The notes under the pieces: generated by a model
What the model was told of the DNA's origin: nothing
Database searches by the model: none
Seen by the model: the letters and a program-made list of their open reading frames with translations, nothing else
Translations under genes and position numbers: made by a program
Source of the DNA: Suillus spraguei
Lineage: Eukaryota > Basidiomycota > Agaricomycetes > Boletales > Suillaceae
Assembly: GCA_016800925.1 (NCBI GenBank)
Contig: JABCPU010000021.1
Coordinates: 1-64,000, forward strand
Direction of reading: 5' to 3'
DNA: 64,000 bases
Shown: positions 13,216 through 63,351 of the stretch, in pieces
Layout: the number at the start of each line of letters is the position of its first letter
How positions within the stretch are numbered: the first letter of the stretch is position 1

Positions 13216-13455
13216 TCTGAGTCTTTCTGGAAAGACATTCTACTCTGTATTTATCATATATCATGACAAGCCTGTTCTGTTGTTTAATTTAGTAACCGCT
13301 ATCATGACGATGGTCCAGCGAACGAGAGGGTTTGGGGTTATTTGGTCCTGTGTACGCCTTCAAGCTTCAAGTTGTGGGTATTTCTTCCTGTATTTGTGGA
13401 GATTAGTACATTGCATCCTAGCTTCATAAATACGGCAAGGTGTCTAGATGACTTA

Positions 13456-42660: not shown

Positions 42661-44056
42661 TGTAATGAACATATTGGCACTGGCCTCAAAACCTTACCTT
42701 TTAGCACTCATCTCACATCTATAGGAGTTACCACTTGTCCATGACCATCTTACCCCTTTAGCATTGCCAGTGGCGTTCCACGCTTACTGCACACTGTACT
42801 GACTGCCGCACCACATTCCACATACCGATGTCCTTCCATGTCCTTGCCACGTCCGCATAGCTCCATTTGGTGCGTAGCTTGTTGTATGTTCGTTATCACT
42901 GATTCCATGGCAAGCCTTATTACATGTTGCCTCATGCCGCAGCCGCCTCGCGCTACATTTACATACAGCGGTTACTGTACTTGAGCACTACTGATTTCGC
43001 CTAACACATTCCGATGTAGAGAAACAATCCTGCCTGGGGGGACAGGTATAAGAAGCAGGGAGCAGTATGTTCAGCCCAAAGGGCTTCTGACTAGCCAAAA
43101 CTCAAGGGAAGGAGAGAGGGAACAGTCAAAGACAGTGGTAGTGTTCACTTAGAAAACTAGGTATCCAGGAGCTAACTAGTGAGCTATGAAAGCTGCCAAA
43201 CTAGAAAAGCTACAAGAAGAAAAGCTGCACAAGAACTCAAATGAGTGAGGAGCTATGGTAAGCTGCCCAGGAACTCAATCAAAAGAGGAGCTAACAGTAC
43301 TGGAACTAAGTAGAATCCTTGGTGGTGCAAAGAGTGAAAGGTAAGGTGCTTATGTAATCATCAAAAGTGCGAACCTAAGGTAAGGAAAGTCCAAGTATGA
43401 GACACCATGCAAAAACTACCTTTTCAAGCCCAGCCTGAGTTTGTCTGTCACACCAAGTACATACAATTTAGGATATAAGCACCGCGTACCCTGCACGATA
43501 CAGTACCTTATTTTCACCGTACTATAGGTCAGGATTAGTGTCTAGCTCTGGATCTACCCAGTAGTGGACTTAGTCTTTAAAGTTCCTTACCACTCATTAA
43601 TCAATTTCGCTCATTCACCGTTACCGCTGGCACACTGCTAGATTCTTGACCCCTGTTTTGACTGAACTTCATGCTCACCGCTACTCTACCACTGAGAGTA
43701 CTGTGGACTTCTTTACTGTGTCTTTGCACTGCTCACACCTTACTGCAACCACTGACGTTATTGCTCGTTATTGCTCACTTGACGCTATGTTTACAAGCAT
43801 TATCTCAACCATGGTAGCACCACTACATACGACGCTAGTTCCGGCGGCATCATTGCTGACTGCTGCAACTTACCACTGACTATGACACTATATTCGCACA
43901 TTGGTTTGACTCAAACTTGACTATACTAACAGGCATCCTCCTTTAGGGTCGAATGCTCTTGCCTTGCAAGTGAAGCAGACTAGATGGAGCACAAGACCAC
44001 ACATACTAACTTAGGAGGTAGTTTATCTACAGCCCAGGTTAGGTTGTATCTTTACA
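42661..44056 (+). repeat. Family C solo LTR (copy 1), with a nested insertion
   Basis: It runs TGTAATGAACATATTGG to GTATCTTTACA. Without the nested 438-bp insertion and its duplicated CCGA it is 954 bp, matching copies at 46648-47596 (949), 49126-50077 (952) and 59857-60821 (965). Flanks are gcac and ccga, so no clear target duplication is seen for this copy. It splits the gene at 41402-44244. Confidence 0.85.
43015..43452. repeat. 438-bp LTR-like insertion, 4-bp target duplication
   Basis: It begins TGTAGAGAAACAATCC and ends CTGTCACA. Flanks are CCGA (43011-43014) and CCAA (43453-43456). Other family C copies show the uninterrupted site attccgagtac. A tataag box and a direct gcttctgactagcc-type segment lie inside; no ORF. 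Confidence 0.7.
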
Positions 44057-44244
44057 CCGAGTTTACGAAGATGACACAGTCTCATCAGGGTTTGTGCCTA
44101 AAGTGCCAGTGTAGGGATGATGGGTATGGAAGTGACAATGGAAGCCACCAGGGCCACAATAGAGTAGAGGAAATGGCTTGACAAACTTGTTAGCTTCACA
44201 GTACATACTCTTCATGATATGATCAGGGAATGTCAATAGGACAG

Positions 44245-45469
44245 TGTTAAGACCGTACTCAAAGGGTGAAATATCCGAAGGGCTTTGGCCTCAGTTCGTG
44301 CACTGTGCCCCTTTCCCGAGTAATGCCCCTTATTTCAGGGAGTAGGTATACATCCGAAGATCTGGAAGGAGTTGCATGATGGATCCGGACATCCAAAGGT
44401 TATCTGGAGCATAGAGACAGAACAAGGATTAAGGCTAGCTTTGGAACAAGTTCCTAACTAGAAACTAACAGAGATAGACTATCTGAAGATAGAGTTGGAG
44501 ATATAGACTAAAGGATTCAATCCCAAGTCTTGGAAGATGACTAGAGCGGAGAGTAACTCAAGTATGGAGGAAACAGAATGAGTAGAATCTAAGATAATAT
44601 TTGAACTAAGGTTCTATGGAGATCTACAAGTGGTTTATATACTGTAAGTATCTAGTATGGATAATCAATGAGTCCAGGACTGAGGGCTATGTACGATGTA
44701 TAACGGAAGTCTATTAGTTAATGCACAGCGGATCAGTAAGCACGAATCAGAAATGAAACACAGGTAACGGATCAGTAACACAGGACGGAAGTATACACAG
44801 CCGGGATACCGGAAACAGAAGGAATGATGAAAGGAGATAGACGCAGATATCCACAAGGGAGTTAGAGTGCGAGAAGTGGGCACATTTGGATGGGCGATCC
44901 AGACAGGATCTGTGGACCAGACAGAAATAGAATCGATCAGATCTGATCAGATATGATTGGATCTGGGATCAGAAGTATTGTCACAACCCACAAACGAATT
45001 AACGCAAGGGCAGAGACTAGGACTCAAACTAAGGTTATCACAAAGAGAGAGAGGAGCAAGGACGTCTTGGATTGCTACAGTCGTAGATACAAGAGGTTTG
45101 AACTAAAGAACTACTACAGCGAAAATAGCTAACTATATACACATATTGAAACTGAGATATAAACTGAGTTTGAAACTACTAGCCAATCATAAAATAGAAA
45201 TGAGAATTGTATGATGTGATAGTTGTGACATTGTTATGACATCATATTCTAGAAGGTTCTAAGATCACGTGATACTATCTTATCTAATCTTATCTGATAG
45301 CATCATAAAAGATCTCTTCATCTTCATCAGGAAGTTTGGTTATAGAAGCGGATGTGGGAATTTTGATGGAGTTTGTGTTTGTCTTAGCGTTGGATTTAGA
45401 CGCTTTAGGGAAATTAAGAAAAGAGTAATGATTTGTATTTGGAATTCGTGACAAGTATGGTATATGACA
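44245..45469 (-). repeat. 3' LTR of family A, copy 2, with a nested solo LTR
   Basis: On the minus strand it reads TGTCATATACC to GGTCTTAACA. Without the nested 475-bp LTR and its 5-bp duplication it is 745 bp. The polypurine tract at 45470-45483 precedes it in minus orientation, which makes it the 3' LTR of the minus-strand pol at 47653-51594. Confidence 0.85.
44979..45453. repeat. Solo LTR (family D) nested in family A LTR
   Basis: A 475-bp sequence with inverted ends TGTCAC/GTGACA, starting TGTCACAACCC. It is flanked by a perfect 5-bp duplication AGTAT (44974-44978 and 45454-45458). The other family A LTRs lack it. Confidence 0.92.
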
Positions 45470-45483
45470 GTATCCCCCCCTTA
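45470..45483 (-). promoter_or_regulatory. Polypurine tract of family A, copy 2
   Basis: Minus-strand ctaaggggggatac directly before TGTCATATACC, equivalent to 4382-4395. It orients the element on the minus strand. Confidence 0.65.
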
Positions 45484-45664
45484 GGGCCGAACCCCTGAGG
45501 CACAAGAAGCATTGATCTGGATTGGACAAGATTAATGCGGGACAATGGAGAAGTTTGATGGTTGTAGTGCTGAGTCTGTAATCCGACAGATATACAGACG
45601 TCAGACATCTGAAGTGATTCCTACCCCCACTTCATATCCTTGTTAACAAAACTTGCTTTAAAAC

Positions 45665-46642
45665 ATGTCTGAAAAGAAATCCAATACCCCTAAGTCTGCT
45701 GCCAACATTGTGGCGGATCTGGAACAGCAACTGGCTGCTGCTAAGGCTGCAGCAGAAGCTGAGGTGGAACGGAAGCGGAAAGAGGTGGAGGAGCGGAAAA
45801 GGCAGGAAGAGTTGAAGCAGATGGAGTTGGCGGAGATCCAGAGGGAAATGGAGGAAAAGAGACAGAGGGCTCTGATTGAGGCTCGGGTGAGTGATGTGGA
45901 CTCTTCCAGATCCGGATCCTAATGGATTGGCAAGGCCAAGGCTGCTCCTGCATCCGGAGCAAAGGATGGGTACTGTTCCCATTGCGTCACTAAGGACCAG
46001 ATGTGTCAGTGGAGTGATGCTGAGAAGAATCCCTTGGTGAGTCATACAAAAACCTTCGGATCCGCTGATTTCGATGTTTTGCAGATTAAGTCCTGTGATG
46101 TCTGCCAGAAGGACAAGGCCACTTGTCCTGGAAGGCCCAGATTTGTCAAGGGGCCCAAGGGCCGGAAGAGGCAGCATCCTGCTGGTACTCCATCTCCGAA
46201 AGGCAAGGGCAAGGGCTGTCAGAGGAGCCCTACTCCGGATGTGGTAGATGCGGATGTCTTCTCCAATCCAGTGACTATTGAAGGTATGGATGAGGATGTC
46301 GTCGAGTATGATGACCAGGCTTGGGTGGCCACTGCTAATGGGATCATTGCGGAACTGGTGCTGACCAATGGACTCCTTCAGGATGGTATTGTGGTGGTGG
46401 AAGGGAGTCGGATTGCCATGGAGCGGATGAGCTCTACCATGGAGGCCTTCCTCCAGCAACAGAGGGAGTTCCAGGCCCTGCTCATTGAGGAGATCCGGAA
46501 TGGATTTAGACTTTCCATTCCTGCCGGATCCGACAAGGATGGTGCTGGTGAGGAGATTGGGGAAGAGGTGGTGGATGGAACTGGAGAGGAGATGGCGGAT
46601 GAGACTGGGGGTGCCGGAGGTGAGATGGAGACTGGTGCTTAG
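45665..46642 (+). CDS. Antisense Zn2Cys6-like gene of LTR family A, copy 2
   Basis: Three exons (45665-45886, 45935-46036, 46085-46642) give 293 residues. Both introns are 48 bases, start GTGAGT and end AG; intron 1 also has a TAAT branch-like word and removes an in-frame TAA. The protein starts MSEKKSNTPKSAANIVADLE, has a long Ala/Glu/Lys/Arg coiled coil (residues ~20-72), then C-x2-C-x6-C, 13 residues, C-x2-C-x6-C. This is close to the fungal Zn2Cys6 binuclear cluster, whose linker is usually 5-12. Then come a basic Gly/Lys stretch, a Met/Gln-rich helix and an acidic Gly/Glu tail. The gene is on the opposite strand to the pol and LTR of its own element. A DNA- or RNA-binding role is possible; function is unknown. 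Confidence 0.75.
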
Positions 46643-46647
46643 TCTGG

Positions 46648-47596
46648 TGTAAAGATACAACCTAGCCTGGGCTGTAGATAAACCACTGCCTAAACTAGTA
46701 TGTGAGTCTTGCACTCCGTCTAGTCTGCTTCACTTGTGAGAACAAGAGCATTCGACCATAAAGGGGGATGCCTATTAGTATGGTCAAGTTCAAGTCTAAC
46801 TTATGTGCGAAAGAAGCATCAAGGTCAGCGGTAAGTTGCCGCGGTCAGCAATGATACTGCCGGAACTAGCATCATGTGTAGCGGTGCTACTGTGGTCGAG
46901 ATATGGTCAGTAACAGTTGCGTTGAGCGATTATATCAGCGGTAGCAGTAAGGTTGTGAGCGGTGCAAGGAAACAGTAAAGAAGTCCACGGTACTTTCAGC
47001 GGTAAAGTAGCGGTGCGTGAGAAGTTCAGTCAAAGTAACAGTCAAAGGTCCAGCGGTGTGCCAGCAGTAATGGAGAACGAGCGTGATAGATTAATGAGCG
47101 ATAAAGAACTTTGAAGACTATGTCCACTACTGGGTAGATCCAGAGCTAGACAATAATTCTGACCTATAGTACATGCAATGGTGTAAAATCAGGTACTTGT
47201 ATCGTGCGGGGTACGCAGTGCTTATATCCTAAATTGTATGTACTCGGAATACTCTAGGCGAGATCAGTAGCGCTGGAGTGTTGTAACCACCATAAGTAAA
47301 CATAGTGCAAGGCGCTGTGGCACAAGGCAACATGTAATAAGGCTTGCTGTGGAATCAGTGATAATGAACATAAAACAAATGACGCACCAAATGGAGCTAT
47401 GCGGATGCAGCAAGGACATGGAAGGACATTGGTACGTGGAATATGGTGCGGCAGTTGGTATGGTGTGCGGTAAGCATGGGATGCCGCAGGTACTGCTAAA
47501 GGGGTAAGATGGCCATGGACAAGTGGTAACTTCTGTAGATGTGAAACGATTGTCAAAAGGTGGGGTTTTAAGCCCAGCGCCAATATGTTCATTACA
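46648..47596 (-). repeat. Family C solo LTR (copy 2)
   Basis: 949 bp, TGTAAAGATAC to TTCATTACA as read on the plus strand. Flanks are CTGG (46644-46647) and CAGG (47597-47600), which reduce to CCGG after one CpG transition each. It separates the antisense gene from the pol 3' end. Confidence 0.85.
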
Positions 47597-47652
47597 CAGG
47601 ATCCGGATTTCTGTTACTGCCCTCAATGTACTTGTATTTCGTTATGTACTTT

Positions 47653-49125
47653 TCAAGCAATGGGACCAGGTTTGTCCGGATATGCTGAGTGGAAATCCAC
47701 TATGAGATCCGATGCATTTCCGAGTTCTGTGGCAAGCAACCAGGATGTTCCTTCATCCGTTCCTTTGTATCCAGACCAACAGACAAGATATAGGAGTTGG
47801 CACTGGTGTCTATGATGGTCCAGTTTGGAGTCCAGGATTTCGGATATCTCATACTCCAGTTCTCTGTCAACTTTGACTGGAGGTGGAGGAGGTTGAATGC
47901 GATTAGGGATGGTGTTTGGAACTGCTGGCTCTAACTGTGAAACATGGAATACAGGATGCACGGAATGCACAGAATGCATAGAATCCAGAAGTTGGATGGC
48001 GAAGGAATGACTGCCTGGACGGGATATAATTTCAAACAGACCTAAATTCTTTTCTGAAAGTTTCTTCGATGGACGAGTGGAACAGAAGTACTTGGCTTTG
48101 ATGAAGACTTGTTCTTCAATCCGGAAATGCAGAGCGGGTTGTCTTTTAGCATCCGCAGGTCCTTGATAGCATTTCTGGGCTTTGGACATCTCTACTCAAA
48201 GAAACTGGTGAAGTTCATTAAGGTCTAGGGCATATTCCTGGGCATGGATGGAGGATAGGTCGCATTCTGGATGAATGGAAATGTTCGGATGATAACCCTT
48301 ATTGGTGAAGAAAGGCAAAACTCCAGTAGTGGCACTCGGAGCATTATTGTATGCAAACTCTGTGAGGGACAGTAGCTCAGACCAGTTGTCCTGCTGATAG
48401 TTGCAGTAGATCCGGAGGTACTATTCCAGCGTTTGGTTGGCACATTCTGTTTGTCCATCCCCTTCCAGATGATATCCGGATATGAAGTGTAGGACCATGT
48501 CTAACGCCTTTCCTAAGGAACGGAAGAAGTGGGATACAAACTCTGTTCCTTGATCTGAGGTTACATGGGATGGAACACCATGCTTGGAGAATACATGGAG
48601 GAGAAATAGGCAGGCAAAATCTGGAGAAGTAATGGTGTCATGGGTCAGGACGAATATGGCTTGCTTGGATAGGTGATCTATGATGACGAGGATGGCTGTA
48701 TAGCCGGATGAGTCCGGAAGTTGCTCAATGAAATCCATAGAGATGGAATTCCAAGGTTTCTCTGGGACAGGGAGTTGCTTGAGTAACCCATAGGGTTTAT
48801 GTCTCAGAACTTTGGCTTGGGCACAGGATCTGCAGGATCTGACATATGCTTTGACATAGGCTCGTATCCCAGGCCAGGTGTAGTTGCATCAGATGAGCTC
48901 GAGGGTATGATTCTGTCCAAAATGTCCGGATAGGGGGTGATCATGGCAGTTACGGAGGACGCATAGTCATAAGTCATTGGCTTCCAGAACATAGATACGG
49001 TTGTCGCAGCGAAGGAATCCACTATCGTCCACTGTCCATCTCGGATCCAAAGGTACTGGAAGATGTGTCCGTGCAATAGGATCATTGGGAAGTTCAGTCA
49101 GGATATCTTTCCAAAGGTTTTCCAT
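47653..49125 (-). pseudogene. Family A pol, 3' part: integrase and chromodomain
   Basis: Reading leftward, the pieces are the integrase N-terminal region (FLRCDNRIYVLEAND), the integrase core (MDFIEQLPDSSGYTAILVII, later SDQGTEF), a YNNAPSATTG segment, then VFHVSQLEP (GPY/F-like end) and a chromodomain (YEISEILDSK, LVCWSGYKGTDEGTSW) before the stop at 47653. Stops and frameshifts at about 48420, 48220 and 48800 make it inactive. A chromodomain places it among chromoviruses. In sense order, the antisense gene and 3' LTR follow. Confidence 0.8.
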
Positions 49126-50077
49126 TGTAAAGATACAACCTAGCTTGGACTGTAGATAAACCACTGCCTAAATTAGTATGTTAGTCTTGTGCTCCATCTA
49201 GTCTGCTTTACTTGAAAGAACAAGAGCGTTCGACCCTAAAGGGGGATGCCTATTAGTATGGCCAAGTTCGAGTCTAACTTATGTGCGAAACAAGCGTCGT
49301 GGTCAGCGGTAAGTTGCTGCGGTCAGCGATGTTACCGCCAGAACTAGCATCATGAGTAGCAGTGCTTCCGTGGTCAAGATAAGGTCAGTCACAGTTGTGT
49401 CGAGTGAGCGATGTCGAGCGGTGGTCTCAGCGGTAGCGGTAAGGTTGCAAGTGGTGCAATGAAACAGTAAAGAAGTCCGTGGTACTTTCAGCAGTAAAGT
49501 AGCGGAGCGTGAGAAGTTCAGTCAAAGTAACAATCAAAAGTCCAGCGGTAACGGAGAACGAGCGTGATGTATTAATGAGCGATAAGGAAACTTTAAAGAC
49601 TATGTCCACTACTGGGTTGATCCAGAGCTAGACAATAATCCTGACCTATAGTACGTGCAATGGTGTAAAATCAGGTACTGTATCATGCGGGGTACATGGT
49701 GCTTATATCCTAAATTGTATGTACTCGGAATACTCTAGGCGAGATCAGTAGCGCTGGAGTGTTGTAACCGCCATAAGTAAACATAGTGCGAGGCGCTGCA
49801 GCACGAGGCAACATGTAATAAGGCTTGCCATGGAATCAGTGATAATGAACATAAAACAAACTACGCACCAAATGGAGCTATGTGGATGCAGCAAGGACAT
49901 GGAAGGACATCGGTACGTGGAATGTGGTGCAGCAGTCGGTATGGTGTGTGGTAAGCGTGGGATGCCGCCGGTACTGCTGAAGGGGTAAGATGGCCATGGA
50001 CAAGTGGTGACTCCTGTAGACGTGAGACGAGTGTCAAAATATAGGGTTTTAAGCCCAGTGCCAATATGTTTGTTACA
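49126..50077 (-). repeat. Family C solo LTR (copy 3) inside family A pol
   Basis: 952 bp from TGTAAAGATAC to GTTTGTTACA. Flanks are CCAT (49122-49125) and CCGT (50078-50081). The pol frame resumes on the other side, so the insertion site is exact. Confidence 0.88.
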
Positions 50078-51594
50078 CCGTATCCATGAGAACAGCTGCT
50101 CTAAGAACCGGAGGTGCTAGGGTTGTGGCTCGTAGGGATGAAGCTAACTGTTCAGAGGTGAATACTGGGCGGAAATTATGAGGATTGACTTGTGCATAGT
50201 CCTTATCCCCCTCTTTGGGGTAGATGTCCCAACATCTAGTAAGGGAATCCGGTTTGGCACCAAGTTTTCTGGGATGGAAACAGATGATGAGATTGAACTG
50301 ATGGAGGAATTCGGACCAGCGAGCCTGATGGCGAGAGAGAAGTTTGGTAGTGGAGAAGTACTCAAGGTTTTTGTGGTCCATAACAACATCTATAGGCTCA
50401 GACGAGCCTTCTAGGTAATGTTGCCAGGTCCGAAAAGCTTCGTGGATGGCTAGGAGTTCCTTGTCATGGGTGTCATAATTGAGTTCCAGAGCAGACAGAG
50501 TACAGGAATAATAGGCAACCAGACAAAGCTCTGAGTCCAGACATACAATGGACAGTATTCCGGCTATGGCATAATCAGAGGCATCGGTTTCCACAACTAT
50601 AGGAACATCTGGAATCCAGTGGGTAAGTACCAGAGCGGAAGTGAAGGCTTTTTTGAGTGCTCCGAAGGATTTCCGACAGTCTTCAGAAAGTTCCAAGGAA
50701 TTCCCTTGCATGTAAGCTGAGTGAGGGGAACTACAATATCTGAGTAGTTGAAGATACATCGATGATAGAAATTAGCGAATCCGAAGAAGGATTGAATGTC
50801 CTTGATCTTCTGAGGTTCTGGCCAGTCGACAATAGACTGGATCTTCTCTGACGACATTGTCAAGCCATCTGGAGATAGCAGGTAACCAAGATACTCAACG
50901 GAGGATGAGTGGAATTCGCATTTCTTGGGTTTGGCATAGAGTCAATGTTTACGGAGGCAGCGTAGTACTTTTCAAACATGTTTCCTATGACTTGCGAGGT
51001 CTTCTGAATAGATAAGGATGTCATCCAGATATACAATAACACATATATCCAGCATATTGGCAAACACGCTATTAACAAAGCATTGAAAAGCCACTGGAGC
51101 ATTTGTAAGGCCTTCTGGCATTACCAACCATTCATAGGAACCATAGCGCATTCGGAAGGAAGTCTTCCACTCATCTCCTTCCACTATCTGGACGAGATGG
51201 TAAGCAGAATGGAGGTCAATTTTGGTGTAAACTTTAGTGCAGCTTGGAGAGTCTAGGAGGTCGGCAATGAGGGGTAACAGATATTTGTCCTTTTTGGTAA
51301 TCTGGTTGAGGCCTCAGAAATCTACACAGAGGCGAAGGGAACTGTCCTTCTTTTTCACAAACAGGACAGGGGCTCCGTGAGGAGAGGATGAGGATCGGAG
51401 GAGTGTGGACAAGATGTTTTCATTGAGGAACTTCCGGAGGGCTTCAAGCTCGACTGGAGAGAGAGAATATATGGATACGAGAGGTGGACTAGCTCCTTCC
51501 TCTATCTCAATTTTGAGGTAATAGGGTCGGTGAGGAGGTAACTGTCTGGCTTTGCCTTTATCAAAGACATACGCAAACTTGTGGTATTTGGAAG
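50078..51594 (-). pseudogene. Family A pol, 5' part: reverse transcriptase and RNase H
   Basis: Reading leftward from 51594: YHKFAYVFDKGKA, LPPHRPYYLKIE, the RT fingers and palm ([41 protein letters not shown] with the YLDD active site), then RNase H (VVETDASDYAIAGILS, DVVMDHKNLEYF). A TGA near 51315 and several frameshifts are present. The upstream gag/protease and 5' LTR are not in the window. The element is cut at 51594 by the family B insertion. Confidence 0.85.
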
Positions 51595-51599
51595 GGATT

Positions 51600-52074
51600 T
51601 GTTACAATTGTACGTACCCCTATTCATTTTCCCTTTGTTTCCTTACTTGTATATCATGTCACATGACTCTGACTCATATGCTCAACGCATCTGTACAACA
51701 CATGCCTTCCTTATTAGGATACACAGTTATGTTCTCACGGTTACTTGGTCTGTGCGCACATATTGGCCTATTTAAGCACAGTGTACTTGTAGTAGATTCC
51801 TTACTTTAATCTTACTGGGTTTTACCTGGAACTTCCTTCACTTAGGTCTCCAACCTAAGTCATCCTTGAATTGTCTCTAAGTCTAAGCACTCCTTAGCCT
51901 TAGTCTCTATTCTCGTAAGAACCTCTTGGACTTGTCCTTGAGGCCAGACCCTTGATCGTACTCGGAACGTGTTCCTTGTACTTTCACCTTGTCCTCTTCT
52001 GGACATTGTAGAACTTCCCAGCAGACCGACTGTGTCTTTTCACTGTCGCTGGTGATGCCATCCCAGTCGTAACA
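51600..52074 (+). repeat. Family B 5' LTR
   Basis: 475 bp, TGTTACAATTG to CGTAACA. It contains a TATA-like tatttaa (51769-51775) and the predicted RNA start region actttaatctt (51803-51813). Confidence 0.95.
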
Positions 52075-52075
52075 A

Positions 52076-52086
52076 AAGATTAAAGT
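52076..52086 (+). promoter_or_regulatory. Self-priming primer-binding site
   Basis: The 11 bases aagattaaagt are the exact reverse complement of 51803-51813 in the LTR, located about 28-34 bases after the TATA-like box, where the transcript should start. This is the arrangement known for Tf1/sushi elements, in which the 5' end of the RNA folds back to prime reverse transcription. Confidence 0.7.
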
Positions 52087-52273
52087 CTTTCTGATCATCG
52101 ACTATCCAGTCTTCGACCCTGAACCCTGATTGCCTAGATCAACAAGACTAGCGTACGAGTACGCTGAGCAGATTGTCAAGAGAAGCCCTCTGACAGAAGA
52201 CAAGCCCTAATGGACAGCAAGACAGCGCGTGTAGGCACTGAGAAAGTATAACTCATCAGACGAATCATCAAAC

Positions 52274-52831
52274 ATGGTGACCAAAGAATTTAAATACAAG
52301 ATCGGTCAACCAAAAGGTTTTGATGGAGATCGCGATAACTCTCGCGAGTTTATTCAGTCATGCAACTTACACTTTGATATCAACGAAAATCTTTATACCA
52401 CCGACAAACAGAAGATCATTTTCATAACATCCTTCATGACCGAGAAGAATGCCAAATCTTGGAAGGAACAATTCCTTGATCATGCCCAATCAACCGACAC
52501 TTCTGGACAAAAAGTTGGTTATGGAACCATGGTGGATTTTATGAAAAGCTTCAAAGAAGCCTTTGAGCCAGTGGATACCAAAGGAACTGCACTCACTAAA
52601 CTCAGAGACCTCAAACAAGGAAGCGGAGATCTCCACACTTACATCGCCGATTTTGAGGCACTTGCAGCCAAGGCTCATATCAGCGATAATGCAATGAAGA
52701 TCCAATTCTTCCAAGATGGTCTAAATTGGGGTATCCTTACCAAGCTTTTCGCACTAGGAGATGTTTCAGAAGTATTTTGAGATGTTGTGCTGCAATGCCT
52801 TTCCATTGACAACTCCCACCATCGTCTTTAA
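52274..52831 (+). pseudogene. Family B gag (one nonsense codon)
   Basis: The frame starts MVTKEFKYKIGQPKG and is nearly identical to the copy at 5764-6327. It is interrupted by TGA at 52778-52780, where the other copy has CGA. After that the frame continues to TAA at 52829-52831. Capsid-like helical protein that would assemble the particle. Confidence 0.85.
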
Positions 52832-52834
52832 GCC

Positions 52835-53110
52835 ATGAGGACACGTCATGCCCCACAACAAAAGAAGAAGAATTATGGAAACGCACGTTACATCCCCAAT
52901 CGTGACTCCAATGCAATGGTCATAGATCAAATCTCCGACACAGAGAGATCCAAATGCATGAAGAAGGGACAATGCTTTGGATGCAAGAAGACAGGGCATC
53001 GCATTCACAATTGTCCCGATAGAAAGAAGAAAACCCTGCTCCGACAAACCAAAGTCAAAGAAGAAGAAGATGATGAAGAAACTGTAAGGCAGGTTGTTGT
53101 GGATTTTTGA
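52835..53110 (+). CDS. Family B CCHC nucleocapsid-like protein
   Basis: A 91-residue basic frame with one zinc knuckle, CFGCKKTGHRIHNC (C-x2-C-x4-H-x4-C). It lies between gag and protease and overlaps the next frame by a few bases (53107-53110). It would bind element RNA. It begins 3 bases after the gag stop. Confidence 0.8.
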   Translation: MRTRHAPQQKKKNYGNARYIPNRDSNAMVIDQISDTERSKCMKKGQCFGCKKTGHRIHNCPDRKKKTLLRQTKVKEEEDDEETVRQVVVDF

Positions 53111-53550
53111 CTTGGAGAAACAAAGATTCGATGTATGTTTCTCCTAATGTATTACTAAGACTTGTACGTGCTGTAGGTGAAAGAAAAGAACTTCGTGTCC
53201 CCATCACCCTTCACTCGCATACTCGCTTAAAATCCGTCGACACTACCGCTGTTATCGATTCAGGAGCGGCAGGAACATTCATTTCCGAGGAGTTTGTGAA
53301 ACTCCATCAAATCACACGACGAAAACTCAAAACACCGTTTCGAGTTACTACAGCGGATGGAACTCTTATTAAAGGAGGACCGATCACACACTATTGCCTG
53401 TTAGTGGTCAAAATCGATGAACGAACCATGTATGGGAAATTCAACATCACCAAACTGGGAAGAAGAGATCAAATCCTTCTAGGAATTCCGTGGTTACGAG
53501 CAATGAACCCAAGCATAGATTGGGCTGCTGAAACACTAGTCCTTCCCTGA
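53107..53550 (+). CDS. Family B retropepsin-like protease region
   Basis: The frame contains the aspartic protease motif AVIDSGAAGTFIS (catalytic Asp at 53257-53259) and the later ILLGIPWLRAMNP, which fits the ILG end of retropepsins. It would cut the gag-pol polyprotein. No stop lies inside. It is separated from the RT frame by a stop and a shift. Confidence 0.85.
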   Translation: MTWRNKDSMYVSPNVLLRLVRAVGERKELRVPITLHSHTRLKSVDTTAVIDSGAAGTFISEEFVKLHQITRRKLKTPFRVTTADGTLIKGGPITHYCLLVVKIDERTMYGKFNITKLGRRDQILLGIPWLRAMNPSIDWAAETLVLP

Positions 53551-53607
53551 ACAATGAAATCGGATGAAATAGAAGTTGATATGGATATGGATTGAAAGAA
53601 GAATGGA

Positions 53608-56021
53608 TTGCCCCCAACCTTCAATTGTCATTCTAAGAAATGGCAACATTCCCAACTTCCGAGATCCCTCGCAATCCCTTCTATTCCCAACGATCCCGAA
53701 CTGGAAGAACAAACACCACGTACCACTGATCCTCTTCCGCATGTACAACTGCCACGACCAGTATCACCGATTCCCCGCGCAGAAAAGCACAAGAATGAGT
53801 CTGAACCCGAGCATCGAGCCGGACAAGAACCTATTGAGCAACGGCCAATAGAAGAACAGAAGTATGGAAAAAGAAAAGTGGAAGAAGAGATTCCTGGACG
53901 GGATACAAATGTACCGAAATTATCCAAATTCTACGTTCCACTGAAAACTCTTCAACATACTCCCTCGGCTTCAATCGAGGAAATCCCCAATGAAGAAGAA
54001 GAACCCGTGCCCTCATTGATCCCAACAGAGGATGATGACCAATTCAACACAATGAAAGATGTCTGGCACACGCCAGAAGTACGTGAAATTTCCTCTTATG
54101 AACTAGGAGATGGAGAATTTCTTGTGGAATACGACACCGACGGAGTTAACATGAGAATCATAGAAGAAGTATCCATGGATACACCTCTGACACGTGACGG
54201 AACTTCTCGACTTGAACAACTCCACAACAGCTCCACAATTCCCCTTCCTCCTCCGAAATACAGTAACAAAGCTCAGGAATTCGCCACGGATGAGAAGGAA
54301 AAGAAAAAGAAATCCTTCGAAGAATTGGTCCCGGATTATTTGCACGACTTTGCAGACGTCTTTGCTAAAGACGGACTGAAAAAACTACCCCCTGAACGCC
54401 CTGGTATAGATCATTGGATCAATACTAAACCCGGTTTTATCCCTCGCACGTCTAAGGTTTATCCGCTATCGGAAAAAGAACGTGCTGCTGTCAAAACGTT
54501 TATTGATGAAAACGTTGCGAAAGGTTTTATCTCAGAATCGAAGTTGCCCCAAGCCAGTGGTTTCTTCTTTGTGGGGAAGAGTGAAGAATTGTGTCCCTGT
54601 CAAGATTATCGCTACATCAATGATTGGACAGTCAAGAACGCTTACCCGCTCCCACTCCCTATCTCCCTTGTCGCACGCCTTCATAACGCACAGTTCTTCA
54701 CGAAAATGGATATCCGGTCCGGTTATAACAATATTCGCATCCATCCTGATGATCGCTGGAAAGCTGCTTTTACTACGGAATTCGGCCTTTTCGAACAAAC
54801 ATCATGTTCTTTGGCCTCTGCAATTCACTGGCAACTTTCCAAGCATACATGAATCGCACCTTCCAACAGGAAATCAACGAAGGGTGGATGGTTATCTACA
54901 TGGATGATATCCTGATTTTCTCTACAACTATGGAAGAACATCACGAATGAACCAGACGGGTTTTGATGAAGATAAGAAAAGAACATCTATTCTTAAAACC
55001 AGAAAAATGCACCTTTGATGAAAAGGAAGTGGAATACCTCGGAATGATAATTCGCCCCGGACAAGTTGCTATGGACACTGCTAAAACCAAGGGAATCTCC
55101 GAATGGCCAGTCCCGAAATCTGTAAAAGATGTTCGGTCATTCCTCGGCTTTTGCAACTTCTACCGCACGTTCATTTCCCACTATTCTGACGTTGCCCGAC
55201 CTCTTATCGATTTAACGAAGAAAGATAAGGCCTTTGACTGGTCAACCGAATGTATGGACACCTTCGAAGAACTGAAACGACACTTCACATCCCAACCGGT
55301 ACTCCGTAACCCTGACCCTTCCCGACAATTTGCAATTGCCACCGATGCTTCGCTTGTAGCAACTGGCGGAGTTCTCCTACAGACTGATGAGAATGGTGTT
55401 TATCACCCATGTGCATACCTTTCACAGTCCTTGAATCCCACCAAGCGCAATTATCAGATCTTTGATCGGGAACTCCTTGCCGTAATCCGGGCACTGAATG
55501 AATGGCGCCATTATCTTGAGGGAAACCCACACCCCGTCCTGGTATTTACTGACCACAAGAACCTTCTATACTTTAGAAGTGCACAAAAGCTTACCCGTCG
55601 CCAAGCACATTGGCAATTGATTTTGTCCATTTACGACATTGAACTGCAGCACATTGCAGGTACTAAATTGGCAGTACCTGATGCACTATCTCGCCGACCA
55701 GACTATGACTCTGGCAAAGATGATAACGAGGACAAGACACTCCTCCCTGACACTCTATTTGTTCATCTTATTGATACTGATCTGCAGGATGTCTTATCGT
55801 CCTCCGATCCCCTCGATGACCCCGTCTTCAAGACTGCGTCCGACGCCCTCAATGGCATGTGTCTTCCTCCCATGAAATCGGCACTCTCTGACTGGAAGAT
55901 TGAGGAGAACGTCCTCTATTTTAAGAACCATGCCTACATTCCACCGGCACATCGTCCCGATATCCTGAAACAGTATCATGATCATCCTACCACGGGACAT
56001 CCCAGTAGATTCAAAATTTGA
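53608..56021 (+). pseudogene. Family B reverse transcriptase and RNase H
   Basis: A Pro/Glu-rich linker is followed by RT motifs: GFIPRTSKVYPLSEKE, FVGKSEELCPCQDYRYIND, FTKMDIRSGYNNIRI, then the YMDD active site (54897-54908). RNase H follows (FAIATDASLVATGGVLL, ELLAVIRALNEWRHYLEG, VFTDHKNLLYF). Faults are a one-base deletion near 54802, a TGA at 54948-54950 and loss of frame after 56021. The enzyme would copy element RNA to DNA; this copy cannot. Confidence 0.88.
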
Positions 56022-56745
56022 AGAACTCGTTAAACGAGAAGCTTGGTGGCCTGCTATGGGCTCTTATATTCGGAAATACGTTGAAGGTTGCGTGCTTTGT
56101 CAGCAAATGAAAGCCGACACACACCCTGTTCGCCCTCCGCTTGCCCCAATACCATCCTCTGCGACTTGACCATTTTCTCAGGTCTCTGTCGATCTAATCA
56201 CTGACCTCCCTGTCTCTGGGGGCTTTGACAGTATCATGGTCGTGGTAGACCATGGCCTTATGAAGGGGGTAATTATTATCCCTTGTTTGAAAACCATCAC
56301 TTCCGAGGGCGTTGCTAAACTATTTTTGAAACACGTCTACCGACGATTTGGACTTCATGGCAAAGTCATCTCGGATCGAGGTCCGCAGTTCCTATCGCGC
56401 TTCTCTAAAGAGCTTGCCCGACTTCTCGACTACGTCATTGCTCCATCTACTGCTTACCACCCTCAGACCGATGGCCAGACTGAAAGGCTAAACCAAGAAC
56501 TTGAAACATATCTTCGTATCTATTGCCGCAACAACCCTGAAAATTGGGTAGAACATCTACCAATCGCCGAATTTGTCCACAACCACCGAAAACATGATGC
56601 TAGGAATGCATCACCCTTTTATTTGATGATGGGATATGAACCACGCGCCATCCCTCACCTTATCCCTGATTCATCAGTCCCCGCAGCAGAAGATCGAGTA
56701 CAATCCCTGCAGAAGATAAGAGAAGAAGCAATTGCGAGGAGATAA
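55978..56745 (+). pseudogene. Family B integrase
   Basis: The zinc-binding N-terminus (HPTTGHP in the frame before, then CVLCQQMK) is split by a frameshift near 56010. The core keeps the D,D,E residues: [17 protein letters not shown], and [17 protein letters not shown] at 56167-56169 probably replaced an Arg codon. The frame ends at 56745, overlapped by the next one. Confidence 0.85.
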
Positions 56746-57181
56746 GTACATTCCATGGAAAATCGGAGATAAGGTTTGGCTATCTGCCGCTAATCTTAGA
56801 CTTAAACTCCCATCAAAGAAACTTGCGCCAAAGCGATACGGACCTTTCCCAATCATCGATGTCTTATCTCCCATCACGTTCACACTTAAACTCCCTTCGC
56901 AGTGGAAAATCCATCCTACGTTCCACGCTTCTGTCTTATTGTCCTATAGCGAAACGGACGTACACGGTCCGAACTTCCCCGAACCACCACCTGACATCAT
57001 CGAAGAAGAAGAAGAATATGAAATAGAAGCAATCCTTTCTCACAAAGGAACCGGCACTCGCCGACACTATCTCGTCTCTTGGAAAGGATATTCATTGGGA
57101 GATAACGAATGGCTCCCAGAAAAGAACTTGAAGAACTCCGCTCAAATCTTGAATGCTTATAAGAAGCAACACGCCCTCTGA
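56732..57181 (+). CDS. Family B integrase C-terminus with chromodomain
   Basis: The 149-residue frame starts within the integrase region ([16 protein letters not shown]), has the GPF module ([12 protein letters not shown]) and FHASVLL, then a chromodomain ([29 protein letters not shown]). The aromatic cage residues Tyr and two Trp are present. Chromodomains of chromoviruses direct integration toward marked chromatin. It is originally fused to the integrase; a small frameshift near 56740 separates them here. Confidence 0.85.
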
Positions 57182-57236
57182 CTATCCTTCAGTCAATCAA
57201 CTCGCATCAGCACTTGGTCAACTAACAACACTTCAA

Positions 57237-58706
57237 ATGTCTTTCCCCACTGCTTACATCACCCCTGTCACCATTGCCAACAATGACTCCGACTCCAATG
57301 CTGAACATTACGGAACCCTTGCCACTGAAATCGATAACACCTCTTACGTCGAAGCCACCCTTCGATGTGAAGGACACGCCCTTGAAATTGAAAGGATCCT
57401 CACAGAAAGAGGTGCCTTCCCGGCTCTCCTCCTCGTCAACATCATCCGTACTGCTGCCCTCATTGAAACCACTGCTAATGAAACCACAGACACTACCTAT
57501 CGTCAACGCTTCCTACATCTTCAAAAATGTATTCGTGCTTACGCTATGCTGCTGCTTCCCAGTTCTTTTAAAAGTGATGTTGAAGAAGCTATTCACATCG
57601 TGGCCAAATGTCGAGCAGGTGTTGCTCGACCTCCCTCTCCGCAGGAAGATGCGCCACTTCCTATTCCAGTACCCCCTGCTTCATGCATGTATTCTAGTGT
57701 TGACGCCCTTGCTGGCTTATGCACTGCTGTCCAAGAGATTGGGCAGCTCACCAATGCAGTTGTCGAAACCATCCAGCAATCAGTCGCTGAAACAAGAGCA
57801 GCCAGAAACTTAGTCGAAGAAGCCATCACTGATCTACAACAAACACAAGTCGACCTCGCTTCTCCCCGAACCCCATCTCCCGTCGAACAACCGACTTCAC
57901 CGTCCCCCGTCACAGTCTCCCATGATCATCCCGCATGGCTATATGAACCTTGCACAGAAGAACAGTGTGAGGCCACAAAACTATTAGGAATCCCTGTCAC
58001 TGAGCTGGTAGTGCTCGGTCCTCGACTTCACGACCTTCACATACACCCTCCCATGTCCATTCCGTCGTCATTTGGTCCAATGGATCCTGTCTCGCCAGTC
58101 TTAGTAAAAGACTTAGGTACCACCTCTCCCTCTTCCTCTAACAAACTCCTTGCAGTTGCTGAACGAGGAATCACTCCCGACCTCCCCACATCCGCGTACA
58201 CCTTGACCAGCAAGCAACAGGCACAGCTTCGACGCGATAACGCCTTTGCCTTAAAACGCATGACACGAAAGAAAGGGAAGAAGCGTGCTAGATCCACCAG
58301 CCCTACACCCATTATCTCACCATCACCATCACGCATGTCCATCTCTAACACCGACGAAAACATGAAATGCCGAGTCTGTGGCATCGTTGGACATCGTCAA
58401 AAGAACTGCCTCAACTACCAGTGTCAAATTTGCCTGCAACATGCTCCTACCCATCTGTCCATTTACTGCCCCCAGCGTCGTGGGGAACTGCTGTTTACAC
58501 TTACTTGGAAGGACGATGGATTTTATGATGCACTGCGTAGGTGGGAACAGTATCTTATTAACCGTCAGTGACGAAAAGAAGGCCGATGGGCAAGAACTGT
58601 AGCAGAGGAGGAGGCGGCTTATATGTTAGGAGGAAGTGCCGCTGATGAAGACGTCGCTAACTATGATGACTATGACCCCGTCTATGACAACAACAGAGAT
58701 GTTTGA
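57237..58706 (+). CDS. Extra 3' ORF of family B chromovirus, CCHC at C-terminus
   Basis: The frame opens at MSFPTAYITPV and runs 444 codons to TGA at 58569-58571; read past that TGA it continues to 58706 with an acidic tail. It is open throughout while gag and pol are broken. Features in order: a helical N-terminal region (~150 residues), a Pro-rich segment, a helix-rich middle (LCTAVQEIGQLTNAVVETIQ), WLYEPCTEEQC, a basic stretch, then two cysteine groups: CRVCGIVGHRQKNC (C-x2-C-x4-H-x4-C) and CQICLQHAPTHLSIYC. A diverged relative at 59220-63776 keeps these residues. It is probably an RNA-binding accessory or second gag-like protein. Role unknown. Confidence 0.8.
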
Positions 58707-58726
58707 AAGTCGGTGACTTTCAATGT

Positions 58727-58739
58727 AAAAAGGGGGTAA
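58727..58739 (+). promoter_or_regulatory. Family B polypurine tract
   Basis: The run aaaaagggggtaa directly precedes the 3' LTR and would prime plus-strand DNA. The relic element has a similar run before 63791. Confidence 0.75.
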
Positions 58740-59214
58740 TGTTACAATTGTACGTACCCCTATTCATTTTCCCTTTGTTTCCTTACTTGTATATCATGTC
58801 ACATGACTCTGACTCATATGCTCAATGCATCTGTACAACACATGCCTTCCTTATTAGGATACACAGTTATGTTCTCACGGTTACTTGGTCTGTGCGCACA
58901 TATTGGCCTATTTAAGCACAGTGTACTTGTAGTAGATTCCTTACTTTAATCTTACTGGGTTTTACCTGGAACTTCCTTCACTTAGGTCTCCAACCTAAGT
59001 CATCCTTGAATTGTCTCTAAGTCTAAGCACTCCTTAGCCTTAGTCTCTATTCTCGTAAGAACCTCTTGGACTTGTCCTTGAGGCCAGACCCTTGGTTGTA
59101 CTCGGAATGCGTTCCTTGTACTTTCACCTTGTCCTCTTCTGGACATTGTAGAACTTCCCAGCAGACCGACTGTGTCTTTTCACTGTCGCTGGTGACGCCA
59201 TCCCAGTCATAACA
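58740..59214 (+). repeat. Family B 3' LTR
   Basis: 475 bp, 98.5% identical to 51600-52074; all seven differences are transitions. Confidence 0.95.
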
Positions 59215-59592: not shown

Positions 59593-61305
59593 TGCCATAT
59601 ACCATACATCCGATCTGATCTGATTGATCCTGCTTCCATCCAGTCCATAGATCCTATCTAGACCATTCATCCAAAACTTCCTACTTCTTGCATTCTAACT
59701 CCACTGTGGACATCTGTGTTTATCTCCTTTCAGTAACCCTCCTGCCTCTAGTATTTTGGCTATGTATATTTCCATCCTGCTTATTGATCCACTACCTATG
59801 TTTCATTTCCAACTTGTGCTTATTGATCTGCTGTGCTTTTACTAATAGACTTCCATTGTAACGAACATATTGGTGCTGGCCTCGAAACCTTACCTTTTAG
59901 CACTTGTCTCACATCTATAGGAGTTACCACTTGTCCATGGCCGTCTTACCCCTTTAGCTTTGCTGGCAGCATCCCACGCTTACTGCACACCGTCCTGACT
60001 GCCGCACCACATTCCATGTACCAATATCCTTCCATGTCCTTGCCGCATCCGCATAGCTCCATTTTGTGCATAGTTTCTACATGACTGTTTATCACTGATT
60101 CCATGGCAAGCCTTATTACATGTCACCTTGTGCTGCAGCTGCCTTGCACTATGTTTACATATGGCAGTTACTGTACTTGAGCGCTACTGATTTTGCCTAA
60201 CGCATCCTGAGTACATACAATTTAGGATATAAGCACCACGTACCCCGCACGATACAGTACCTGATTTGTACCTTATTTTCACTGTACTATAGGTCAGGAT
60301 TAGTGTCTAGCTCTGGATCTACCCAGTAGTAGACTTAGTCTTTAAAGTTCTTTACTGCTCGTTAATCAATTTTGCTTGTTCACCATTACCACTGACATAC
60401 CGCTAGATCCTTGACCCCTATTTTGACAGAACTTCACGCACACCACTACTGTACCACTGAAAGTACCGCAGCCTTCTTTACTGTTTCTTTGCACCACTCA
60501 CATCTTACCGCTACCGCTGATATTATTGCTCGTCACCGCTCGCTTGATGACACAGTTACTGACATTGTTTCAACAGCGCTAGTACTGCTACTTACCACGC
60601 TAGTTCCTGCGGCATCATCGCTAGCCGCGGCAGCTTACCACTGACTACGACGCTACATTCGCTCGCTGGTTTGACTTGGATTAGACTATACTAACAGGCA
60701 TCCCTCTTTAGGGTCAGACACTCTTGTTTGACAAGTGAAGCAGACTAGACGGAGCGCAAGACCACACATACTAACTTAGGAGGTAGTTTATCTACAGCCC
60801 AGGTCAGGCACTATATTTACACAGTTATACTTTGTACATAGCCCTCGGACCCGGCTCATTGATTATCTGTACCAGTTACCTACAGTATATATTCCACTTG
60901 TAAACCTCCATAGAACCTCAGTTCAAATATCATCATAGTTCTGCTCATTCTGTTTCTCCAGACTTGAGTTCCTTCTGACTCTAGTTAACCTCTGAGACTT
61001 AGGATTACCTCCTATTGTCTATATCTCTGGCTCTACCTTCAGGCAATCTATCTTCATTAGTTTCTAGTTAGGATTCTGTCTGAAACTAGTCTTATATCTT
61101 GTTCCATACCTATATTCTGGATATCCTTCGGATGTACTATATCTGTTACCTTTGGACATCCACATCCAATATGTGTCTACCTTCAGACACTTTGGATGTG
61201 TACCTTTGCCTCTGAAATTAAGAGCAATACTCAGGAAAGGGGCACAGCATACAAGCTGAGGCCAAAGCTCTTCAGATCCATTACCCTTTGAGTACAACTT
61301 TAACA
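59593..61305 (+). repeat. Family A solo LTR with nested family C LTR
   Basis: It begins TGCCATATACC and ends AACTTTAACA, flanked by a perfect 5-bp duplication CTGGC (59588-59592 and 61306-61310). Without the nested LTR (59857-60821) it is about 744 bp, like the other family A LTR. The relic ORF resumes exactly after it. Confidence 0.93.
59857..60821 (+). repeat. Family C solo LTR (copy 4), nested in family A LTR
   Basis: 965 bp, TGTAACGAACATATTGG to ATATTTACA. Flanks CCAT (59853-59856) and CAGT (60822-60825). Related LTRs show the uninterrupted acttccgttatac, so the original target is CCGT. Confidence 0.88.
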
Positions 61306-61727
61306 CTGGCTATATGAACCTTGTACTGAGGAGCAGTGCAACACTGCTAAAGAACTAGGGATTGAGCCTGCTGAGCTAATTGCACTCAGTCCATGTCTTA
61401 GAGACCTACATATTCATCTGCCTTTGACAATTCCAGCAGCATTCACCCCAGCTGATCCTGTTGCCCCAGTCCTTGCAGAAGCCTTAGGGCCTACATCACA
61501 ATCCTCCCCTGATGAACTCATCACAGTCACTGAATGTCCTGACACCCCTGACCTTCCATCTTCTGCATATTCCTTGATGCCTGAGTAACAAGAGGAACTT
61601 CATTGGGAGAATAATATTGCACTTAAGTGTATGGTGCAGAGAAAAGGAAGGAAGTGAGCATGTTCTAGTATCTAGTAGTCCTCCTCCTGTCATGTCACCT
61701 TTACTGCTCCATGCCATTGTAACAAAC
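61306..61727 (+). pseudogene. Relic chromovirus 3' ORF, part 2
   Basis: Translates to WLYEPCTEEQC and then conserved residues LRDLHIHLPLTIP and DLPSSAYSLMPE, matching the middle of the full-length ORF, with stops in the basic stretch. Interrupted at 61727 by a family C LTR. Confidence 0.82.
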
Positions 61728-63351
61728 ATATTGGCGCTGGCCCCCTATTACATGTTGCCTCGTGCCACAGCCGCCTCGCCCTACGTTTACATACAGCGGT
61801 TACTGTACTTGAGTGCTACTGATCTCGCCTAGAGCATTCTGAGTACATACAATATAGGATATAAGCACCGTGTACCCTGCATGATACAGGACCTGATTTG
61901 TACCCCATTGAACGTACTATAGGTCAGGATTAGTGTCTAGCTCTGGATCTACCCAGTAGTGGACTTAGTCTTTAAAGTTTCCTTACTGCTTGTTAATCGA
62001 TTATGCTTGTTCACCGCTACCACTGGCACACCACTAGATTCTTGACCCCTATTCTGACTGAACTTCACATGCACCACTGAGAGTACCACAGACTTCTTTA
62101 CTGTTTCTTTGGACCACTCGCACCTTACCGCTACCACTGACTTTACCACTGTAGCGAACAAAGTCACGCTGACTATGAAAGTGCTGTTTTACACAAGTTT
62201 CTTGTTACTGCCTACAGCGGCTACCGAGAAAACCCCTATAGCAAGCATTACCCCTTTTCGCTTCGCCAGTACCGTTTTCGCTCTGTGGATCCTTGCCCCT
62301 TACCAAATCTCGCTACCAATGTCCTCCTGTCCATTCCATTTCCGTCTAAGATCCATTGGTGCATAGCATATTCATTTCCGCTGTTACTAAAGCTATGGCA
62401 AGACTTACCTTACCTTCCGTGACACTGCTTGCTTGCTGCGTGCCTCTTAGCTAAATATCTCTATCTTGCTACCATTCTCGCTATGTATTCCGGCTGTTCA
62501 TGGTACATGTTAAAAAGGACTCTTCGCACATTCCGGTACTTTTACTTTTCTCTCTATGGTACACACAGTACTTAGGAATTGTCACCACTACTGTCTCTAA
62601 CAGAATGAAGTCTTTCGCCAAAGTCACTGTCTCTTAAGAATTGTTTTACTGCTGCACGCACCACCACTCTTTACCGTTTTCCCGCGCTTCATCGCTATGC
62701 TTCACCGCTTGTTTTACCGCCAGTTTCCCACGCCTTACCGCAGTTTTACCGCACGCACTACCACAGTTTTACCGCATGCACTACCACAGTTTTACCACTT
62801 TCGCTACCGCTTGTCTACCGCTTTCCCGTGCTTACCGCTAGTTTCCCATGGACCGGAGGTCACCGCTAGCATCTCACTACCTCCGACGGCAGTCTTGCAC
62901 CACAGGTTGGGCATTATTGAACTATATTAACTTAGCATTCCCTTTAGGGTCGAATGCTCTTGCTTTGCAAGTGAAGCAGACTAGACGGAGCGCAAGACTC
63001 GCATACTAGTTTAGGCCGTGGTTCATCTACAGCCCAGGCTAGATTGCATCTTTACGCCGCTCATTATCGCTCACTTGATGCTACATTTTCAAGTATTTTA
63101 TCAACCATGGTAGCCCGCTACATATGATGCTAGTTCCGGCAGCATCGTCGCTGACCACGGCAACTTACCGCCGACTATGACACTACATTCGCTCACTGGT
63201 TTGACTTGGATTAGACTATACTAACAGGCATTTCCCTTTAGGGTCGAATGCTCTTGCTTTGCAAGTGAAGCAGACTAGACAGAGTGCAAGACCACACATA
63301 CTAACTTAGGAGGTAGTTTATCTACAGCCCAGGTTAGGTTGTATCTTTACA
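61728..63351 (+). repeat. Family C solo LTR (copy 5) with nested family C LTR
   Basis: It runs TGTAACAAACATATTGG to GTATCTTTACA with a perfect 4-bp duplication CCAT (61724-61727 and 63352-63355). About 240 bp of the 5' part is deleted. Without the nested LTR and that deletion it returns to about 950 bp. Confidence 0.88.
62150..63056 (+). repeat. Diverged family C LTR nested in copy 5
   Basis: 907 bp, TGTAGCGAACAAAGTC to CATCTTTACG. Flanks CCAC (62146-62149) and CCGC (63057-63060). The Ser/Thr-rich short repeats accgc/accac inside are not coding. Confidence 0.75.

Follow-up and report, generated by a model that had tools for sequence, protein, structure and literature searches.

We analysed a 64,000-nt stretch of the ectomycorrhizal bolete Suillus spraguei (contig JABCPU010000021.1, positions 1 to 64,000; hereafter the window), which is contig C381 of the searched assembly (86,217,890 bases in 1,256 contigs). 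Positions 44245–51594 hold copy A of a long terminal repeat (LTR) retrotransposon family, family A, with pol on the minus strand and a gene on the opposite strand in the interval from pol to the 3' LTR. Judged by its sequence, family A is a Ty3/gypsy chromodomain LTR retrotransposon family with a gene antisense to pol. Splicing of 45665–46642 (plus strand) at 45887–45934 and 46037–46084 gave a stop-free open reading frame (ORF) of 293 amino acids (aa), in agreement with the first-pass annotation, which had placed a 293-residue antisense gene in this interval. Exon 1 (45665–45886) contains the start codon and a predicted coiled-coil region; intron 1 (45887–45934; GTGAGT...AAG, 48–50 nt among copies) carries an in-frame TAA; exon 2 (45935–46036) encodes a first CxxCx6C triad; intron 2 (46037–46084; GTGAGT...CAG, 47–49 nt among copies) follows; and exon 3 (46085–46642) encodes a second CxxCx6C, a basic region, a conserved long helix (EYDDQAWVA...), an acidic tail and the stop. 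Once spliced, copy A reads C-x2-C-x6-C-x13-C-x2-C-x6-C, as that annotation had it. Copy B in the window (gene at 3607–4198, minus strand; LTR at 4437–5160, plus strand by LTR match, where the LTR written on the gene strand matches the minus strand) keeps both introns at the same places, read directly in the two copies as claimed, and has lost most of exon 3, including the normal stop, to a large internal deletion. The 48 bases claimed for both introns held in copy A and not for intron 1 of copy B (49 nt; intron 2, 48 nt); removal of the introns did restore the frame past the TAA, although in copy B it serves the frame as well as the stop.

The pol of copy A is not intact. Pfam placed RT_RNaseH, rve (integrase core) and SH3_Tf2-1 above cut-off, and Chromo (19 bits, E 0.0013) under its cut-off of 25.1. 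On the minus strand, the C-terminal end with the SH3-like Tf2-1 domain and chromodomain lies at 47653–48189, the integrase region at 48191–49125 (rve core in 48421–48738) and the reverse transcriptase/RNase H region at 50078–51594, truncated near 51594, where a neighbouring element starts; copy A thus ends before any 5' LTR. Two insertions of ~950 nt interrupt it: a repeat that is probably a solo LTR of another family separates the gene from pol (46648–47600), and a second copy lies within pol (49126–50077). The 3' LTR (44245–45469, minus strand; TGTT...TGACA on the plus strand) was rightly called an LTR by the first-pass annotation but is not a single unit: it combines ~741 nt of LTR sequence with an insertion of ~480 nt (about 44982–45458), and when it was compared by blastn with 20 loci only the first ~741 nt were matched in most copies. 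Adjoining it is a polypurine tract (45470–45486, minus strand), which reads CCCTAAGGGGGGGATAC. The spacer from the LTR to the antisense ATG (45470–45664, plus strand) may serve as an antisense promoter or 5' untranslated region; of ten segments compared among copies, this one (taken as 45469–45664) was the best conserved (median 93.0%, n = 24).

The gene was found throughout the assembly. A search with exon 1 gave at least 150 gene copies (all 150 scored of 217 candidates matched), and for closer reading we took 20 stretches of up to 10 kb, four of 6–7 kb, 20 short ones and six further ones. These yielded 47 gene starts (the window plus L009–L052), chosen mostly from the best-scoring matches, which biases intactness upward. 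The intron-1 GT donor was present in 46 of the 47 copies (five rows read by eye); the exception, L023, has lost both donors (TT and AT). Intron 1 measured 48 nt in 15 of 45 measurable copies, 49 nt in 29 and 50 nt in one, and with 49 nt the frame is kept only when the intron is removed. Donors were almost all GTGAGT or GTAAGT, and CTAAT/TTAAT/CTGAT-like words preceded the acceptors. The spliced ORF was intact in 21 of the 47 copies (293–305 aa); read from its first base, intron 1 contained a stop in all 21, as did intron 2 in 18, with two of the other three having a 47-nt intron 2. We infer from these features that the host splices the antisense gene.

Linkage of the gene to the element was assessed on the best 150 matches each for the chromodomain and exon 3. 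Exon 3 lay at most 2.5 kb downstream on the opposite strand in 124 of the 150 chromodomain matches listed (median distance 229 nt, maximum 1,184), on the same strand in none, and was absent in 26, several of which (e.g. on C412 and C464) carry the gene in the loci that we read. Counted from the gene side, the 150 matches listed divided into 124 on the opposite strand, 1 on the same strand and 25 with none. The expected conservation of linkage and orientation in other family A copies was therefore borne out. Of the 20 loci up to 10 kb long, 18 contained pol pieces (L017 and L024 had none), and all 18 had the arrangement seen in the window. Among 44 LTR matches, LTR pairs in the same orientation and 6–8 kb apart surrounded the gene on contigs C827, C463 and C396, and all three elements had perfect 5-bp target-site duplications (GTCAT, CAATA and GTTTG, respectively); in L011, whose two LTR copies are only 86% alike, no matching duplication was found by eye. 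The spacing from exon 1 to exon 3 was 199 nt in each of these three mobile elements. More broadly, 99 of the 150 exon-1 matches could be paired with one of the 118 of 150 exon-3 matches whose alignment starts at the first codon (excluding the row of the family-C query), and 96 of the 99 pairs were spaced by 194–200 nt, with room for both introns (outliers 145, 165 and 680), while none had the spacing of a processed copy (near 102 nt). Being antisense to the genomic RNA is what lets the introns persist through retrotransposition, and intron-spaced pairs without processed ones are the outcome that an antisense intron predicts; the explanation first offered for intron retention thus stands. Separately, L010 (contig C464, 4011–5011) contains a head-to-head inverted pair of gene exon 1, spacer and LTR end at a contig end, which could be an assembly effect.

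Substitutions were analysed among the 21 intact copies only, and the pairs share history and are not independent. The ratio of nonsynonymous to synonymous substitution rates (dN/dS) had a median of 0.16 in the gene frame (180 of 210 pairs, dS > 0.08); the complementary sense frame gave 1.86. At the three codon positions, 46, 51 and 117 columns were variable (287 each), or 17, 19 and 81 after removal of CpG-decay columns, and median dN/dS in successive dS bins was 0 (11 pairs, dS < 0.03), 0.12, 0.14, 0.12 and 0.17. A null was built in which the differences were reassigned among equivalent bases, CpG status being preserved (500 draws, five pairs); its medians were 0.55–0.61, and the observed ratios of 0.15–0.19 fell below all 500 draws in four of the five pairs. 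The exception was copy A vs L011 (0.50, not below all of the null draws), perhaps reflecting decay after insertion. For the diverged family C, comparison of exon 3 between L056 and L068 gave dN 0.098 and dS 0.26 (ratio 0.37), and L041 vs L056 gave proportions of nonsynonymous and synonymous differences of 0.28 and 0.77. Instead of approaching 1, the ratio across copies therefore had a median of 0.16 against a null of ~0.58; by this substitution pattern, the antisense frame is under purifying selection and the overlapping sense ORF is not.

That sense ORF (360 aa, 45632–46714, minus strand, downstream of pol) could in principle be the real coding sequence with the antisense frame as its shadow. 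The longest sense frame is open over a median of 312 codons in the 21 intact copies, and the antisense gene of copy A has no TTA, CTA or TCA among 29 Leu and Ser codons (P about 0.003 given pol codon usage), these codons being absent from 19 of the 21 copies, with one each in L026 and L031. However, the gene is generally poor in A-ending codons (in copy A, 15 of 104 codons for V, A, P, T and G), it is the antisense strand that published models from other Suillus species annotate as the gene, and the contrast between 1.86 and 0.16 led us to reject the sense ORF as a real gene, leaving this explanation scarcely tenable. The frame at 45632–46729 (minus strand) is itself an instance of an ORF that stays open opposite a gene without purifying selection, partly due to few A-ending codons.

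Protein searches listed 12, 20 and 104 proteins, overlapping, and all relatives with an organism name came from Suillus (S. spraguei, luteus, cothurnatus, bovinus, tomentosus, occidentalis, brevipes, paluster, variegatus and placidus), with ~50% identity across families and species. Six pattern matches in viral contigs were seen, none of which was confirmed. The full-length gene models P0026 and P0027, both predictions, have a charged helical start, the six cysteines, a basic stretch and a DDQAWV-type helix, and P0024, a published S. spraguei gene model and likewise a prediction, joins its exons exactly at the intron 2 that was placed by eye in L056. The gene also stands opposite pol in diverged families (L056, L058 and L068), and in L056 the position of intron 2 is unchanged. 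This distribution, together with at least 150 copies, the selection seen and a ratio away from the ~0.58 null in four of five pairs, speaks against a host zinc-cluster gene captured once and hitchhiking without function. The introns do imply DNA-level capture in antisense orientation, yet we give the idea of a functionless passenger almost no weight. It is also highly improbable that the locus acts mainly as antisense RNA, as a double-stranded or small interfering RNA regulator, rather than through its protein: the tail-to-tail layout would make overlapping transcripts likely, and antisense transcripts are discussed as regulators in the accessible part of a review (PMC7264820), but selection acts at the codon level and the protein is conserved across families and species.

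Canonical Zn2Cys6 domains follow C-x2-C-x6-C-x5..12-C-x2-C-x6..8-C. The six cysteines of the antisense protein form two CxxCx6C triads whose spacing (13 in copy A, 14 in P0027) lies outside the x5..12 range, so that the protein falls short of this pattern. Among 16 family proteins, Pfam Zn_clus scored two above its cut-off of 21 (P0027, 21.2; P0042, 21.3) and eight below it; six, copy A among them, were not listed. Ten of 11 Foldseek matches in the PDB were Pho7, Leu3, Gal4, Put3 or Hap1, and a structural alignment to LAC9 covered 33 residues at 1.9 Å with 36% identity. A long helix was predicted at residues 93–168, with a confidence score (pLDDT) of 95–98 over residues 91–150. An alignment-profile search of PDB sequences gave weak matches only (9slr, E 1.2; LAC9, 3.8; Gal4, 6.4 and 9.9). 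The second triad aligned in profile matches with the first half of Zn_clus, and the first triad of P0024 aligned with the second half of that profile; these crossed matches suggest a half-swapped order of the zinc-cluster triads. The zinc-cluster assignment of the first-pass annotation is thus best retained as Zn2Cys6-like: the cysteine region is present, and structure prediction supports the fold weakly. Compared to the fungal Zn2Cys6 domains of Gal4, Leu3, Put3 and Lac9, the protein shares the two triads and a long helix after the cluster and differs by the long spacing between triads.

Words of the CGG type are the usual targets of zinc clusters, and we counted them to look for a target of the protein, ranking ~136 tetramers against dinucleotide expectation in 21 stretches. 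In L016, CGGA/TCCG, a half-site of the zinc-cluster kind, occurred 157 times vs 48.8 expected (z 15.5; next tetramer z 5.1) and TCCGGA 23 times vs 2.3. CGGA ranked first in 16 of 18 family A stretches (L009, L012–L016, L018–L020, L023, L025–L028, L030 and L031) and in one of three from diverged families (L056). Elsewhere it ranked fourth (L032), twelfth (L029), third (L058) and fifth (L068), and the top words there, TCCA or CAGA, are its CpG-decay forms. Four elements had 31.7, 36.4, 33.7 and 24.9 CGGA per kb vs 7.3 in window positions 12001–36000 (24 kb without family A, of similar GC and CpG), and TCCGGA reached 3.4–5.0 per kb in the same elements vs 0.04. In L016 and L025, CGGA occurred from the LTR and spacer through the introns and exons to pol, with exon 2 of L025 as the one exception, and TCCGGA appeared in all three codon phases of L016 pol. 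In L016, the CGGA sites showed no preferred spacing that would point to a dimer site, apart from the overlapping palindrome TCCGGA (23 cases). We also rejected a recent gain of CGGA between copies, as L014–L031 and L014–L019 differ mainly by CpG decay.

Such an excess might be no more than a by-product of CpG decay elsewhere in the sequence or of constraint on the protein, and once CGGA is masked the remaining CpG observed/expected ratio is indeed 0.47–0.62. This explanation appears very improbable: the absolute density of CGGA is 3–5 times that of host DNA, whose CpG ratio is 0.93, and in all six coding stretches both CGGA and TCCGGA exceeded synonymous shuffles (observed counts reached by at most 2 of 1,000), with CGGA/TCCG counts reached by none of 1,000. 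Within the window, the 4-kb tiles that ranked CGGA first (4001–8000, 44001–48000 and 48001–52000) hold copies A and B; tile 1–4000, with part of copy B, ranked it 15th, and among the 12 other tiles the highest was 12001–16000 (rank 5, z 2.4), the rest being below z 1. No CGGA excess was seen in the gypsy element at 51600–59150 (tiles z 0.3 and −0.7) or in gypsy flanks of L016, L025 and L020 (z −3.2, 1.2 and 0.4; RNase H query identity 34–38%). Seven of nine flanks lacked the excess (ranks 27–134), L028 had z 3.6 (rank 11) and L027 had z 12.1 and 9.1 in two parts.

The sequence shows where the gene lies and how it is oriented, that it moves with the element and keeps its introns, that the antisense frame is under purifying selection, and that there is a six-cysteine region with a predicted long helix and an element-wide CGGA excess. 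On this basis we propose, with a probability of roughly 0.55, that family A encodes a factor that binds its own scattered CGGA sites and activates or de-silences the element. An antisense promoter, located in the conserved spacer or the 3' LTR, would drive transcription of the accessory gene, which stands tail to tail with pol on the opposite strand; the host would splice the transcript, and the gene product would be a nuclear, coiled-coil, probably dimeric, zinc-cluster-like protein. By binding CGGA sites spread over its family's LTRs, introns and coding sequence, the protein could turn the element on or shield it from silencing through many bound sites; CGGA includes a methylatable CpG, hence a possible link to silencing. 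A protein translated from an antisense transcript gives no preference to the packaged RNA, so the selection observed is easiest to explain if the protein acts on the DNA of its own family, which the dense CGGA sites fit. The factor might activate transcription, block methylation or do something else.

Weighing against this proposal is the L027 flank, which is CGGA-rich yet belongs to another repeat family (L027 1–3950 on contig C857, also L022 1934–3555), with at least 40 copies and partly of short tandem repeats. Its 4 kb gave no pol match and no antisense-gene match beyond the repeat stretches of a faulty model (P0001), and it has 59–70 nt in common with the family A LTR. It ruled out the idea that the motif is exclusive to gene-bearing elements, and may mean either that CGGA is favoured for another reason or that the repeat is a non-autonomous partner of family A using the same factor. 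A selected accessory gene acting in another step (nuclear import, integration-site choice or as a chaperone), with CGGA enriched by, for example, a host factor binding repeats, fits the selection, linkage and intron evidence equally well and accommodates a CGGA-rich repeat without a recognised gene; nuclear or pre-integration roles have also been proposed for plant proteins in the part of the review available (PMC7264820). We consider this alternative unlikely, though a serious contender: four other gypsy elements of the genome lack the excess, CGG-type words are what a zinc cluster would usually bind, and the repeat may rely on the same factor acting in trans.

Other features of the window were noted in passing. 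The ~950-nt repeat (probably solo LTRs of another family) recurs at 59854–60823 and 61721–63353, and also in L029, and is rich in CCGC/ACCGC, another CGG-type word (ACCGC 9 vs 1.3 expected in 46648–47600); it may represent a second element family with its own self-tag. Positions 1–2330 hold ~170-nt tandem repeats very rich in CCCGA/CCGAA (CCCGA 37 vs 3.6 expected). The second gypsy-type element (51600–59150), with repeats at 51600 and 58740 that are 100% identical over 300 nt and likely young LTRs, is rich in AAGA/CTTC and has an inverted relative at 5274–7003. By eye, long ORFs at 7716–10745 resemble Helitron replication/helicase proteins, and several related ORFs (280–569 aa) at 11957–33583 are HET-domain-like in a tandem-like arrangement.

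Antisense genes are listed for Grande, RIRE2, Retand, PvRetro13 and Boty in the accessible review text (PMC7264820), which calls their functions unknown, describes the Grande product as nuclear with its own promoter, and advises a search for antisense and spliced transcripts; family A speaks to this open question by pairing, within one element, a biochemical activity with a DNA target, both of them predicted. The Suillus gene occupies the aORF-3R position of the plant antisense ORFs (antisense in the pol–3' LTR interval in 124 of 150 chromodomain matches listed), and resembles them in place, strand and presence in most copies. Only the layout is compared here, and the Suillus case differs by its fungal chromodomain element, two short introns, cysteine region and CGGA tagging. 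A fungal antisense gene was already known in brtn of Botrytis cinerea Boty (Zhao 2011, as cited in PMC7264820, PMC8365987 and PMC4227169), so that the novelty first claimed does not extend to fungal antisense LTR genes as such. By the citing papers' descriptions, brtn is likewise an antisense extra gene, the Boty gag-pol has a chromodomain (PMC4227169, PMC8365987), and the host is an ascomycete instead of a basidiomycete; a Monilinia transcript is described as resembling brtn (PMC5987419, in the part available). No spliced or zinc-cluster antisense gene in a fungal LTR element was seen among the titles and opening lines of abstracts that topic searches of open-licence literature listed, and the spliced zinc-cluster form appears new. 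Family A also shows that introns can be inherited stably through retrotransposition. Human T-cell leukaemia virus type 1 (HTLV-1) HBZ, which is spliced and has a 3' LTR promoter, is similarly, in the descriptions available, an antisense retroelement gene for a DNA-associated factor; it is a bZIP protein of a retrovirus rather than a zinc cluster, and we claim no homology.

VANC offers a parallel. In the portion of the source available (PMC5735166), the VANC21 motif YAGTATTAY is enriched in Arabidopsis VANDAL21 and rare in other transposable elements, a protein encoded by the element thus being matched with a short motif enriched in its own family, as CGGA is in family A. CGGA is strong in family A and absent from four other gypsy elements, with a second repeat family also rich in it. 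VANC motifs form tandem repeats, mainly in non-coding DNA, whereas the Suillus CGGA is dispersed and also coding, and both element and protein differ; VANC-like anti-silencing in family A, with its binding and demethylation, is a conjecture by analogy. Tentatively, and with the odds against it, one may picture a half-swapped zinc-cluster protein, antisense and spliced, that recognises CGGA seeded across its element, perhaps in common with the CGGA-rich non-autonomous repeat: a class I self-recognition and anti-silencing system built independently as an analogue of VANC. Family A suggests that retroelements can carry a self-tag by which the factor they encode locates their copies.

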